Shown: positions 6,827 through 49,489 of the stretch, piece by piece | How positions within the stretch are numbered: position 1 is the stretch's first letter | Layout of the letters: each line of letters starts with the position of its first letter | NCBI GenBank assembly: GCA_015061605.1 | Contig: SUWH01000002.1 | Location: 1 to 64,000, forward strand | Direction of reading: 5' to 3' | Origin: Lentisphaerota bacterium | Lineage (GTDB): Bacteria; Verrucomicrobiota; Lentisphaeria; Victivallales; Victivallaceae | DNA length: 64,000 nt | Notes under the pieces: generated by a model | What the model was told of the DNA's origin: nothing | The model's input: the letters and a program-made list of their open reading frames with translations, nothing else | Databases searched by the model: none | Position numbers and translations under genes: made by a program

Positions 6827-7041
6827 ACGCCTGTCCGGCAAATTGCCGGACGACAGGCGCAATGCCAGCAGCTCAAGGTGCGATATCGCACAGCCGGGCG
6901 TGTTTTGCAAGCGAGAAGCGAGGGGAGTGTACTGTGGTACTCGACCCGAGCGTCGAGTGCTGCAAGGCGCGCTCCGGCACAGCAAGATCGCACCGCATTT
7001 TGGAAAAAGGCACAAAAAATGGAGGCGTGAATCGGAATCGA
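6827..7041. repeat. Intergenic repeat copy B, overlapping the 3' end of tRNA-Cys
   Basis: This is the second copy of the 6457-6704 repeat. It starts with the same GCCTGTCCGGCAA hairpin and runs into the real tRNA-Cys 3' end at 7020-7041. Confidence 0.85.
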
Positions 7042-7093
7042 ACCGATCTAAGCGATTTTGCAGACCGCTGCCTAACCTCTTGGCTATCACGCC
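7020..7093 (-). tRNA. tRNA-Cys (GCA)
   Basis: A 74-nt cloverleaf on the minus strand: acceptor GGCGTGA/TCACGCC, anticodon loop CTGCAAA giving GCA, T-loop GGTTCGATTCC, discriminator U73 (the cysteine identity base) and encoded CCA. Confidence 0.95.
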
Positions 7094-43970: not shown

Positions 43971-45278
43971 ATGGCCAAAAATCTGAACGATTCCATCAAT
44001 ATGGAAGTCAAAGAAGCCGGAGTCTGTACTAAAGAATTTACTTTCAGCATCTCTGCCGATGCCGCCAAAAGCGAAAGTGCCAAAGTTTTGAACAGCATCG
44101 CCGGTATGGTTCAGCTTCCCGGTTTCCGCGCCGGAAAAGCTCCGGTCGGAATGGTGAGCAAAAAGTATGCCGCCGAAATCGTCGACGAACTCCGCAGCCG
44201 CTATCTCAGCGCCGCCGTCAACAAAATTGAAAGCGATGAGTCGCTCGATCTGCTCTCTCTGCGCATCAAAAAACTTGACGAGATCAAAGCCAATGAAGCC
44301 TGCGAATTTGTCTTTGAAGCTGTCACCGCTCCCGAATTTGAACTCGGTGACTACAATGCCATCAAACTTGACATCCCCGTCGATGCTGTAACCGAAGAGG
44401 CAATCGCTGAACGCCTCGACCTCTACCGCAATATGTACGGCACCTACGCCGATGCCGATACCCCCGCGCAGAAAGAGGATATGCTCAAGGTCGATTACAA
44501 AGGCGATTTCGCTCTGGCAGAAGATGCTTCCGCTTCTCTCAAACGTCAGGTCGAAGCCACCGACAGCTTCATGTGGCTCAATGAGCCGGAAAACATCCCC
44601 GGCTGCATCGAAGCTCTCACCGGTGCTGAAGCCGGTAAAGAGTATAATTTCACCGCCAACTATCCCGCCGACTACCGCGAAGCGGAACTCGCCGGCAAGA
44701 GTATCGCCTACACCGTCAAAGTCAATGCCATCCAGCGTCGCAAACCGCTGAATGACGAGGAACTCGTTGCCCGCACCAACTCTGAAACCATGGATAAACT
44801 TACCGAAAATATCCGCAAGAGTCTGGAAAATGATGCCGAACAGAAACGCCGTCAGGAAGCTGTCGATGCCTACTACAAAAAGCTCGATGAATCCGTCGCC
44901 CAGTTCGATCTGCCCGCTTTCCTCGTCGATGGCGAAATCCAGAAAGCTCTGGAACGTCTTGCCCGCGAAACGGTCAAAGATGAAGCCGATGCCGAGAAGT
45001 TCAAAGCTGAACTCGATACCCACCGCGCCGCCGTCGAAGCCGATGCCAAGGCCGCTGTCCGCCGCACTTTGATCCTCCGCAAAGCTGCTATCGCTGAAAA
45101 GGTCGAAGTTGATGACAAAGAACTCGATTTCCAGCTCAGTATGATGAGCCGTTACTATGGTTTCAACGCCAAAGAAATGCGCTCCACTCTGGAGAAAAAC
45201 GGCGGTATCGATGAACTGCGTACCGATCTTATCAACGGTAAAGTTCTCGACAAACTCGCTACCGCTGCGCTCAATTGA
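43971..45278 (+). CDS. tig: Trigger factor (ribosome-associated chaperone)
   Basis: The 435-residue protein has the N-terminal ribosome-binding domain with a variant of the docking motif (LPGFRAGKAPVGMVSKKY), a central PPIase-like domain around 160-245 and a helical C-terminal chaperone domain. It binds nascent chains at the exit tunnel. The motif GFRxGKxP is conserved. AAAGG precedes the ATG. The order tig-clpP-clpX is the classical one, here extended by kinase, dxr and glycosyltransferase genes. Confidence 0.94.
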   Translation: MAKNLNDSINMEVKEAGVCTKEFTFSISADAAKSESAKVLNSIAGMVQLPGFRAGKAPVGMVSKKYAAEIVDELRSRYLSAAVNKIESDESLDLLSLRIKKLDEIKANEACEFVFEAVTAPEFELGDYNAIKLDIPVDAVTEEAIAERLDLYRNMYGTYADADTPAQKEDMLKVDYKGDFALAEDASASLKRQVEATDSFMWLNEPENIPGCIEALTGAEAGKEYNFTANYPADYREAELAGKSIAYTVKVNAIQRRKPLNDEELVARTNSETMDKLTENIRKSLENDAEQKRRQEAVDAYYKKLDESVAQFDLPAFLVDGEIQKALERLARETVKDEADAEKFKAELDTHRAAVEADAKAAVRRTLILRKAAIAEKVEVDDKELDFQLSMMSRYYGFNAKEMRSTLEKNGGIDELRTDLINGKVLDKLATAALN

Positions 45279-45337
45279 GCGCAGCGCAATGCTGATAACA
45301 ACAATGGGTGCAATCGGGGATGACAGGAGAGAACATT

Positions 45338-45949
45338 ATGAAACAGACCAAATCTTATCTCGTGCCGACTGTTATCGAACAGACCAGTCAGGGCGAACGT
45401 GCATTTGATATTTACAGCCGTCTGCTTAAGGACCGGATAATTCTGCTCGGTACCCCGATCGATGATTCCGTTGCCAATCTGGTGATCGCCCAGCTGCTCT
45501 TTCTGCAGGCTGAAGATCCCAAAAAAGATATTGAACTTTATATCAACAGTCCCGGCGGTTCCGTCACCGCCGGACTGGCGATCTATGACACCATGCAGAT
45601 ACTTTCCTGCGATGTGAAAACCTACTGCCTCGGTCAGTGCGCCAGTATGGGAGCGGTTCTGCTTGCTGCCGGTGCCGCCGGTAAACGTTACGCTCTGCCC
45701 AACAGCCGCATTATGATCCACCAGCCCTGGGGCGGCGCGGAGGGTACCGCCGCCGACATCAGTATCCAGGCAAAAGAGATCCTCCGGCTCAAAGCGATGC
45801 TCAACAATATTCTTTCAACTCACTCCGGGCAGCCGCTCAAAAAGATCGAGAAAGATACCGAGCGCGACTTCTTTATGAGTGCCGATGAAGCAGTCGAATA
45901 TCATCTGGTCGACAGCGTTATTCAGCCGGGCAGTAAGAGCGCCAACTAA
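45338..45949 (+). CDS. clpP: ATP-dependent Clp protease proteolytic subunit
   Basis: The 203-residue protein has ClpP features: [20 protein letters not shown] at the processed N-terminus, the nucleophile in [14 protein letters not shown] (Ser), the histidine in [13 protein letters not shown] and the aspartate in DRDF-like [11 protein letters not shown]. It forms the tetradecameric protease chamber with ClpX. The ATG at 45338 follows AGGAGA. Confidence 0.96.
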
Positions 45950-45973
45950 TCCAGTTTGGAGAATTTTTCCAAG

Positions 45974-47260
45974 ATGGCAAACAATAAAAATAAGATGCAG
46001 TGTGCTTTCTGCGGTCAGGAGCCGTCTTCCAAAAAGAAAGACCTTTTTTTCCTGCCCAGTATGTATGAGGGGCTGAGCATTTGTACCGAATGTCTCGAAA
46101 AAGCCAATGCTTATCTCAATGATACCCGCGAAAGCCGCGCCGAAAAGAGCAAATCCAATTTTATCAGTAAACTCAATGTGCCGACTCCGGTCGAGATCAA
46201 AGAGGAACTGGATCGCTGTGTTATCGGTCAGGAGCAGGCTAAAAAGGTACTTTCTGTCGCGGTCCACAACCACTATCACCGCTTGAAAAGCCGTTTCACC
46301 AACGGCGGTAAAGCTCTTCCCGAAGAACTCAAAGATGTCCGTCTGGATAAGAGCAATGTTCTGCTTCTCGGCCCTACCGGAAGCGGTAAAACTCTGCTCG
46401 CCCAGACGCTCGCCAATATGCTGGATGTGCCCTTTGCCATCGCCGATGCCACCACTTTGACCGAAGCCGGTTATGTCGGTGAGGATGTGGAAAATATCCT
46501 GCTCCGGCTCTATCAGGCTTCCGGAAATGATATTGAACGTACCCAGATCGGTATTATTTATATTGACGAGTTGGATAAAATTTCCCGCAAGGGGGAAAAC
46601 GCCTCCATTACCCGTGATGTTTCCGGTGAAGGGGTGCAGCAGGCATTGCTCAAGATCCTCGAAGGCACAGTTGCCAATGTTCCGCCGCAGGGCGGGCGCA
46701 AGCACCCCAATCAGGAATTTCTCCATATCGATACCACCAACATCCTTTTTATCTGTGCCGGAGCTTTTGTCGGTCTGGATAAGCTGATCAAACGGCGCAA
46801 AGGCAGCCGGGTTCTCGGTTTTGACGATGCCGGAAAAACGGTTCTGGATGATGAAGACGAAAACCGCAACGCTCTGCTCGACTGCGAACCCGAAGATCTG
46901 GTCCACTTCGGACTCATTCCGGAACTGGTCGGACGTCTTCCGGTCGTTTCTGCTCTTGATGCGCTTGATAAAGCCGCTCTGGTCAGGGTTTTGTGTGAGC
47001 CGCGCAATGCGCTGGTCAAACAATACCGCAAACTTCTGGCGATGGAGAATGTAGAATTGGATTTCACTTCCGGTGCGCTTGAAGCAATCGCTGATAAGGC
47101 GGTCAAACGCGGTACCGGTGCCCGGGGATTGCGGGCGTTGATGGAAGAGCTGATGCTCGATGTGATGTTCAACGCGCCGTCCGTAAAAAATCAATCTAAA
47201 TGTACTATTGGGGAAAAACACGTCCGTGGAGAAGAGCGACCCGAACTTGAACAGCTTTGA
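45974..47260 (+). CDS. clpX: ATP-dependent Clp protease ATP-binding subunit ClpX
   Basis: The 428-residue AAA+ unfoldase has an N-terminal C4 zinc finger (CAFCGQ, CTECLE), Walker [18 protein letters not shown], the [10 protein letters not shown] pore-region segment, Walker [11 protein letters not shown], sensor regions and the [19 protein letters not shown]-terminal motif. It recognises and unfolds substrates for ClpP. The ATG at 45974 follows TTGGAG. Its 3' end overlaps the longest form of the kinase gene. Confidence 0.96.
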
Positions 47261-48317
47261 CAACGGTTCCGATCAGACTCTTGTCATTGCTGACCAATCT
47301 GTCGCAAAAGAGAGCGACATGGATGCCGTTTCAACTCTCCCTGTAAAGCCGCAGGACAGATATAAATTTATCCGCAGCATCGGTTTCGGCGGGATGAAAG
47401 GGGTTTTGCTGGTACACGACAGTGATACCGGGCGCGATGTTGCCATGGCGATCATGCCGGATTTCCGTACCCGTCCCCGTCGGGATCTCAACCGTTTTGT
47501 CCGGGAAGCGTATATTACTGCCCGATTGGAACACCCCAATATCGTTCCGGTACATGATATCGGAATTGACGGTTCAGGGTCCCCTTATTTTACCATGAAA
47601 TATTTGCATGGCAAGACGTTGGCAATGATTTTGCACCAGAAGCAGCAGGGGATAGATAATGATTATTCCCAGGAACGTCTGCTTCAGGTCATTGTCCGGG
47701 TCTGCAACGCGGTCGCGTTTGCCCACAGTAAAGAAATTTGTCACCTTGACCTCAAACCGGGTAACATCCATTGCGGAGAATTCGGAGAAGTCCAGGTTTT
47801 GGACTGGGGCTTGGCTGCCGCCGCCGATGATGATTTTGATCAGGGATTGCTTCAGGGGTCTCCCGGTTATATGTCGCCGGAATTTATCCGTTCCAAAGGT
47901 ATGGAGCGTCCCGGTGTTGCCGCCGATATTTATGCCATCGGAGCGATCCTTTATGCGATTCTTGCCAACAGCAGCCCGTTTGCCGGATTGCCTTCACAGG
48001 AGATTCTGCGTCGTCAGGTCGAGGGCAGAATAACTCCGCCGTCACAGATAAACAGTCAGGTCGATCCGGGGTTGGAGGCGGTTTGCATGAAAGCCATGGC
48101 GCTTGCCCCGGCAGACCGCTATCAGAGTGTGCTGGAGTTGCGTAGAGATATTCTCGCCTGTATCGCCGGTTATCCGACCCGGGCGGAGAATCCCTCCGGG
48201 TGGCGTCGGATGGTGTTGTATATCAGGCGCAATTGGAGTAAAGCGATCATAATTTTACTGTTGATATTGATCGGTATATTGGGATTTTTCCTGATGCACT
48301 ACCGTATGGCAGGATGA
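47208..48317 (+). CDS. Serine/threonine protein kinase with WNK-like lysine placement and C-terminal membrane anchor
   Basis: The up to 369-residue protein has a kinase domain (about 52-320) and a C-terminal membrane helix (about 341-362). In the glycine-rich loop the third glycine is lysine (GFGGMKGV, Lys64), and the VAIK lysine is alanine (VAMA, Ala81), the same pair of changes as in eukaryotic WNK kinases. The helix C glutamate (FVREA), HLDLKPGN (Asp181, HRD arginine replaced by Leu) and DWG (Asp199) are present, so activity is plausible. The start is uncertain: TTG 47208 (used here), GTG 47226 or ATG 47319. It lies between clpX and dxr, overlapping the dxr reading frame by 4 bp. Confidence 0.8.
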
Positions 48318-48334
48318 TTCCGGGGGGGATGGAT

Positions 48335-49489
48335 ATGGAAAAAAAACGGATCGTACTTTTAGGCGCAACCGGCTCGATCGGTCAGAACAGTTGTGCGATT
48401 TTAGCGGCAAATCGTGAACGGTTTGAAACCATTGCCGTTGCCGCCCGCAGCAGTCTGGACGGACTGGCTGATGCCGCGGTCAAACTCGGTGCAAAAGTTG
48501 CGCTTACTACTGATACTGCGCTTGAAAGCGAACTTGCTTCCAGACTCCCATCTTCCATTAAAGCCGCATCCGGTATGGATGAATTGCTGAATATCGTCAC
48601 TTCCAAAGAGGTCGACATCGTTATTTGTGCCATCATCGGTACTGCCGGTATCCGTCCGGTGCTGGCGGCGATCGAAGCAGGGAAAACCATTGCTCTGGCA
48701 AGTAAAGAGGTGATGGTCGCCGCCGGAGATCTGGTCAATGCGGCGTTGAAAGCGCACCCCGAAGCTCAATTGCTTCCGGTGGACAGCGAACATTCCGGAG
48801 TTTTTCAGTGCCTTGCCGGCAGGCGTACCGATGAAGTCGATACGATCTGGCTCACCGCCAGCGGCGGCCCGTTCCGCAACTGGAGCGCCGAAAAGATCGC
48901 CAATGCCACCGTTGCTGAAGCTCTCGCCCATCCGACCTGGAACATGGGGCGCAAAATCACCATTGATTCGGCATCCATGATGAATAAAGCTCTGGAACTG
49001 GTCGAAGCCAAATATCTTTTTGCCAAATATAATGCCAAACTTGATGTACTGGTCCATCCGCAGTCGGCGGTTCACGCGCTCATTGAACTTACTGACGGTT
49101 CACTTATCGCCCAGTGCGGTTATCCGGATATGAAACTTCCCATTGCTTACGCACTTTCTTATCCGGAACGGCTGCCGTTCCCGGGCAAACGGCTTTCGCT
49201 TGCCGAACTTAAAACGCTGGAATTTTTCGCTCCTGACCGAAAGAAATTTCCGGCATTCAGTTTCGCTGATGCCGCACTTGAAGCGGGCGGGACCTTGCCC
49301 TGTGCGATGAATGCCGCCAACGAGATCGCGGTTGAACGCTTCTGTCGCGGTGAGATAAATTTCGGTTCGATTTACCGTATTATTGATTGCGTGATGAGCA
49401 ATTGGCACAATGAGGCGCAAGCATCTCTGGAACAATTGCAAATTGCCGATACCGAAGCGCGGAGCAAGGCTCTTGAGGTGCGGCTGTGA
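48335..49489 (+). CDS. dxr: 1-Deoxy-D-xylulose 5-phosphate reductoisomerase
   Basis: The 384-residue protein has the NADPH-binding LGATGSIGQNSC, IALASKEVMVAAG, the metal-ligand and substrate residues in VDSEHSGVFQCL, LTASGGPFRNW and TWNMGRKITIDSASMMNKALE. It makes MEP, the first committed intermediate of the non-mevalonate isoprenoid pathway. The ATG at 48335 follows GGGGGGAT; earlier ATGs at 48314 and 48329 are possible. Its stop overlaps the GTG start of the next gene. Confidence 0.95.
   Translation: MEKKRIVLLGATGSIGQNSCAILAANRERFETIAVAARSSLDGLADAAVKLGAKVALTTDTALESELASRLPSSIKAASGMDELLNIVTSKEVDIVICAIIGTAGIRPVLAAIEAGKTIALASKEVMVAAGDLVNAALKAHPEAQLLPVDSEHSGVFQCLAGRRTDEVDTIWLTASGGPFRNWSAEKIANATVAEALAHPTWNMGRKITIDSASMMNKALELVEAKYLFAKYNAKLDVLVHPQSAVHALIELTDGSLIAQCGYPDMKLPIAYALSYPERLPFPGKRLSLAELKTLEFFAPDRKKFPAFSFADAALEAGGTLPCAMNAANEIAVERFCRGEINFGSIYRIIDCVMSNWHNEAQASLEQLQIADTEARSKALEVRL

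Follow-up and report, generated by a model that had tools for sequence, protein, structure and literature searches.

Eukaryotic WNK kinases have lost the VAIK lysine, and a lysine of the glycine-rich loop in strand beta2 substitutes for it (PMC1821047, PMC4718504, in the parts available). In inactive WNK1 the HRD arginine binds the helix C glutamate, and the L369F mutation renders WNK1 insensitive to chloride (PMC1821047 and PMC13397483, likewise in part). A comparable shift of positive charge, from position 72 to position 55, has been described for the CAK-chloro kinases (Kannan 2007; available part of PMC1821047). Here, a related arrangement is described in a bacterial Ser/Thr kinase encoded next to clpX in the window, a stretch of 64,000 nucleotides of contig SUWH01000002.1 from a Lentisphaerota bacterium (GCA_015061605.1, an assembly of 2.56 Mb in 52 contigs). 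In this kinase a lysine replaces the third glycine of the glycine-rich loop, and an alanine occupies the position of the VAIK lysine; kinases with both changes are referred to below as swap kinases. No report of a bacterial WNK-type kinase was recognised among the papers listed by literature searches, the reach of which stopped short of most subscription papers and of the main bacterial kinase atlas. The available parts of a 2025 review of bacterial pseudokinase families (PMC12599244) name no family with the swap, and those of a paper on Planctomycetota kinases (PMC11032199) leave it unmentioned.

The kinase was read from an open reading frame (ORF) at 47208–48317 on the forward strand, which has a TTG start and a product of 369 aa. 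The frame holds one Ser/Thr kinase domain, and Pfam Pkinase (PF00069) covers residues 52–304 with 122.6 bits against a cut-off of 31.7. The swap-site residues are Lys64 in the loop and Ala81 in place of the VAIK lysine, with Glu100, Asp181, Asn186 and Asp199 kept and HLD at 179–181. The initial annotation had reported this exchange together with the retained Asp, Asn and Asp, and both the translation and the coupling of the two sites across relatives confirmed it. Its reading frame was also correct, but the start that it used, TTG 47208, is probably 6 codons too early: GTG 47226 (363 aa) is favoured because orthologue N-termini, compared by eye, align at the VEK segment, one with Met there. 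It had further proposed predicting a structure to see whether Lys64 reaches the ATP phosphates and Glu100; the AlphaFold2 model (mean predicted local distance difference test score 92.2) places Lys64 at the start of beta2, Ala81 in beta3 and Glu100 in helix C, in support of a WNK-like swap. The source genome has 11 Pkinase loci, and the VAIK lysine is present in the 10 besides the window kinase.

Related domains were sampled from 60 near genomes including the source genome, 145 genomes from the phylum (partly overlapping), 10 reached via named loci, 149 Planctomycetota genomes (59 searched again more deeply) and named GTDB genomes. For the last of these the best 80 of 584 confirmed matches were taken, among which the records matching the window kinase best were Victivallaceae and Lentisphaeria genomes. 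Part of the profile matches became loci that could be read. All profile matches in the fetched loci were counted, with identical domains taken once and those truncated at one or other of the two sites left out (7 in an earlier, smaller count).

The two changes were found to be tightly coupled and fixed in a broad group. Of 255 distinct related domains that were complete at the loop and VAIK sites, 116 had the loop lysine, and every one of these carried alanine in place of the VAIK lysine; of the 139 without the loop lysine, 137 kept the VAIK lysine. The ratio of 116 to 139 is no census because the loci were chosen for their similarity to swap kinases. The tally of loop and VAIK-site residues was K/A 116, G/K 113, A/K 19, S/K 5, A/I 1 and G/A 1, so that both lysines occurred together in none of the 255. 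All 84 domains fitting the motif expression (from 86 swap rows, near-copies included) had 13 residues between the loop lysine and xAxA. Within residues 45–215, Lys64 was the sole basic column above 90 % that canonical relatives lacked. The helix C glutamate (Glu100) was present in every swap domain, and Asp181, Lys183, Asn186, Asp199 and Glu100 were invariant or near-invariant over the 116. None of these counts derives from alignment A1, made of the window kinase and 45 of the 52 motif-bearing domains then collected, as its rows were picked by motif and its invariant K and A columns are thus circular.

We consider it fairly probable, from sequence conservation and the predicted fold, that this is an active membrane-tethered kinase that uses Lys64 as its ATP-phosphate lysine and that the swap is independent of WNK. 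The protein would be a cytoplasmic Ser/Thr kinase held at the membrane, of a family spread across Verrucomicrobiota and relatives. The lysine that binds the ATP phosphates would have left its VAIK place in beta3, taken here by Ala81, for the third glycine at the start of beta2, taken here by Lys64. Lys64 most likely touches the alpha and beta phosphates and forms a pair with Glu100, and Asp181, Lys183, Asn186 and Asp199 would function as in other kinases. The initial annotation had favoured an active kinase over a pseudokinase; the retained catalytic residues agree with this, and activity is what we infer from them. As a non-RD kinase, it would probably not be activated through an activation-loop phosphate held by the HRD arginine.

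Further active-site differences were sought by comparing columns between the 116 swap domains and 104 canonical domains scoring at least 200 bits. After 64 and 81 the most divergent columns were 188 and 180, both in the catalytic loop, closely trailed by 270 and 220, which were not placed in the nucleotide pocket. The HRD arginine (residue 180) was lost in all 116 swap domains (L in 102, F in 12, Y in 1, M in 1) and present in 113 of 139 non-swap domains. Residue 188, which by its position we take to be the counterpart of PKA Leu173 in the adenine-pocket floor, was Q (46), N (22), H (22) or R (10) in 100 of 115 readable swap domains, with I, M or L in 8, versus M (102) or L (23) in 125 of 137 canonical domains. 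Two swap kinases (L089 and L121) keep I and M here, which indicates that the lysine can move without the polar residue. The tryptophan of DWG was found in all 115 readable swap domains. Such differences are differences between related groups and alone are no proof of compensation.

The losses of the VAIK lysine and the HRD arginine, together with the mostly polar residue 188, would also suit an ATP-binding pseudokinase, in which Lys64 holds nucleotide so that the protein can serve as a scaffold or switch while transferring no phosphate to any useful extent, and bacterial pseudokinase families with altered ATP sites have been described (PMC12599244, in the part available). Against this, a scaffold would need none of Asp181, Lys183, Asn186, Asp199 and Glu100, which are retained almost without exception in 116 diverse domains, and the pseudokinase explanation is considered unlikely. 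The same two catalytic-loop changes may instead suggest a re-shaped nucleotide pocket and transfer of something other than the gamma phosphate, for example AMP, or a small-molecule substrate. The pseudokinase SelO transfers AMP; for the swap kinases we regard this explanation as quite improbable.

It is very improbable that the kinase belongs to the eukaryotic WNK family, acquired for instance through gene transfer. The initial annotation had called the arrangement exactly that of WNK kinases, and this holds for the move itself: as far as the available sources describe WNK1, the loop lysine is at the same position, the VAIK lysine is gone and the helix C Glu is kept. Beyond the move, the word overstates the likeness. 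WNK1 has Cys at the VAIK-lysine site, unlike the Ala found here, and the swap kinases have HLD in place of HRD, so that the WNK feature involving the HRD arginine is absent. WNK1 Leu369 of the chloride pocket is presumably the Leu of DLG, and the swap kinases have Trp at the matching place. The window kinase also differs from WNK in being bacterial, tail-anchored and PknB-like. PknB headed both the sequence and the structure match lists (Foldseek, VIA-align); WNK was outside the matches listed, which excludes nothing by itself. The likeness to WNK looks like convergence, given that the closest structure is canonical PknB and that DWG replaces DLG. Because two of the WNK features tested, the HRD arginine and DLG, are lacking, the window kinase is classed with the bacterial PknB-like kinases as a variant despite its inferred use of the loop lysine.

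Within that class, PknB-type kinases have a normal loop, the VAIK lysine and HRD in the alignment, in contrast to K55, A72 and HLD in the swap kinase (position numbers as for CAK-chloro). No PASTA domain was found in the window kinase, and its score to the PASTA kinase PknB/Stk1 model NF033483 was 217.5 bits, below the curated cut-off of 450. Its second-best NCBIfam match was the PknD model NF009651 (180.4 bits against a cut-off of 839), which was the best match for two long swap kinases scanned. PADLOC matches (PD-T4-6 and others) were taken as generic kinase similarity. CAK-chloro kinases, in the source as available, have R55, M72 and Phe in place of E91, whereas swap kinases have K55, A72, an invariant E91 and a protein-kinase activation segment. 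Chance, assembly error or decay of a single gene is a negligible explanation, ruled out by the same residue pair in 116 distinct domains from many assemblies.

The initial annotation had proposed searching genomes of the Planctomycetes–Verrucomicrobia–Chlamydiae group for the loop lysine with VAxA, and the swap was found in Lentisphaerota, Kiritimatiellota, Verrucomicrobiota and one Planctomycetota genome. Sorted by NCBI phylum, the named loci gave 20 swap and 2 non-swap domains for Lentisphaerota, 7 and 0 for Kiritimatiellota, 5 and 4 for Verrucomicrobiota, and 1 and 17 for Planctomycetota; none of the 29 domains from other phyla or without a placement had the swap. The phylum survey covered the best-scoring loci, so rarer swap kinases may escape it. 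The best match was of the normal arrangement in 34 loci newly read from 34 of the 149 Planctomycetota genomes. A single Planctomycetota metagenome-assembled genome (MAG), G181, had swap kinases among the loci read (L103, L214, L224, L234), which may reflect transfer or misbinning. Lentisphaera marina IMCC 11369 has at least seven swap kinases (L212, L222 and L232 newly read, and four earlier) and 93 kinase-profile matches in 5.3 Mb; as all seven kinases read there are of the swap type, the family may be expanded in this species. Separately, a kinase-like ORF of a Planctomycetota MAG (L154:3-896, reverse strand) has loop G, A at the VAIK site and DLH for DFG, and is perhaps a true pseudokinase.

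In a 144-row tree built with the three trait columns left out, swap and non-swap labels required 2 changes, against a mean of 47.7 when shuffled. A more careful 58-row tree also required 2, and a single swap clade was not rejected (approximately unbiased test, p-AU 0.434). Many separate origins are therefore unnecessary. The neighbours of the swap kinases in both trees, which contained no WNK rows, are bacterial canonical kinases. The two rows interrupting the swap group, L090 and L196 (the latter also with WD40 repeats), stand at its edge or within it and have loop G and the VAIK lysine, yet HLD, and may represent an ancestral step or a reversion. The swap would have arisen separately from WNK, perhaps once, in a PknB-like ancestor whose HRD arginine may already have been lost.

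The kinase lies between clpX and dxr as initially annotated, both gene names being confirmed above NCBIfam cut-offs. Of the ties to proteolysis and isoprenoid genes drawn from this position, the first held for clpX in the host's family and the second was dropped as a general tie. Of the 75 loci where clpX was read, 62 had a swap kinase directly 3' of it; the 62 come from 46 window-family genomes, a few of which were read twice, and from two further named records (L082, L085). clpX was directly upstream in all 46 window-family genomes where both genes were read side by side, and dxr followed the kinase in 16 of these 46. Within that family the association with clpX is strong, and the isoprenoid tie is local. 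In L082–L085, tig and clpP stand before clpX. Two genomes of the same genus (G009, G018) have neither the kinase nor a real ClpX match, a double absence that fits joint loss or assembly gaps. In another family of the order (L078, L091) the kinase is short and tail-anchored, with no clpX within the fetched DNA.

A C-terminal hydrophobic helix was present in 48 of 50 swap kinases on ORFs of up to 470 aa, the remaining two being cut short, and the C-terminal Kyte–Doolittle mean exceeded 1.6 in all 48 complete short swap kinases. Other branches differ, and three long swap kinases from the order (L045, L054, L067) carry leucine-rich repeat matches. For the window's branch, the gene order makes it reasonable to propose a link to the Clp protease, and the clpX-linked member would probably act on ClpXP or on its client proteins at the membrane.

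Several observations weigh against this overall interpretation. The swap kinases are related to each other, which means that the domains counted for the coupling do not stand for independent events, and the polar residue 188 in most swap domains could mean altered or weak ATP binding. Neither tree places the swap kinases on one side of a branch, and a single swap clade appeared in 6 % of 200 bootstrap trees for the 58-row set. The tie to ClpXP is one of gene order, and 13 clpX loci lacked an adjoining kinase, 12 from genomes outside the window's family and one from a genome within it (G035). A wider proposal, that a second, independent WNK-style catalysis (loop lysine, non-RD, mostly polar pocket floor) operates in a large family of Verrucomicrobiota and relatives, with the clpX-coupled membrane-anchored branch being a dedicated kinase that controls or feeds ClpXP, is held with middling confidence.

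If true, a bacterial family that reached the WNK solution would show that evolution can take the route of the lysine move more than once, and L090 and L196 (HLD with the normal lysine) may preserve an intermediate. It would also provide bacterial enzymes for asking how a catalytic lysine can move, and would caution against labelling swap kinases as pseudokinases in annotation. The clpX linkage leads to the testable idea that ClpXP is under phospho-control in swap-kinase bacteria.

Table 1. Positions of the kinase, its sequence elements and neighbouring genes in the window
Feature	Position	Strand	Evidence
tig (trigger factor)	43971..45278	+	above NCBIfam cut-off
clpP	45308..45949	+	above NCBIfam cut-off
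clpX, directly upstream of kinase, ORFs overlapping	45956..47260	+	TIGR00382, 578 bits vs 370.75
Tail-anchored Ser/Thr kinase, probable true extent, GTG start, 363 aa	47226..48317	+	orthologue N-termini by eye, sequence, Pfam Pkinase
Glycine-rich loop GFGGMK, residues 59–64; Lys64 codon 47397–47399	47382..47399	+	sequence
VAMA in beta3, residues 78–81; Ala81 in place of VAIK lysine	47439..47450	+	
Glu100, helix C glutamate, expected Lys64 partner	47505..47507	+	E in 116/116; inside model helix 49–64
Catalytic loop, residues 179–188: Asp181, Lys183, Asn186 kept; HRD Arg replaced by Leu180; His188	47742..47771	+	
DWG, residues 199–201, metal-binding Asp199	47802..47810	+	
C-terminal hydrophobic helix, read as tail anchor	48243..48299	+	Kyte–Doolittle mean 2.90 over 19 residues
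dxr, 4-base overlap with kinase end	48314..49489	+	above NCBIfam cut-off

Elsewhere, a gene with a sigma-70 region 2 match (Pfam) lies just before or overlaps a swap kinase in Lentisphaera marina (L106:3294-3893) and in Akkermansiaceae (L115:3289-3882); a gene in a like position ahead of another swap kinase (L110:3195-3851) was judged sigma-70-like by eye alone. The window also contains two tRNA genes, at 2088–2161 and 7023–7093 (−), identified with Rfam.
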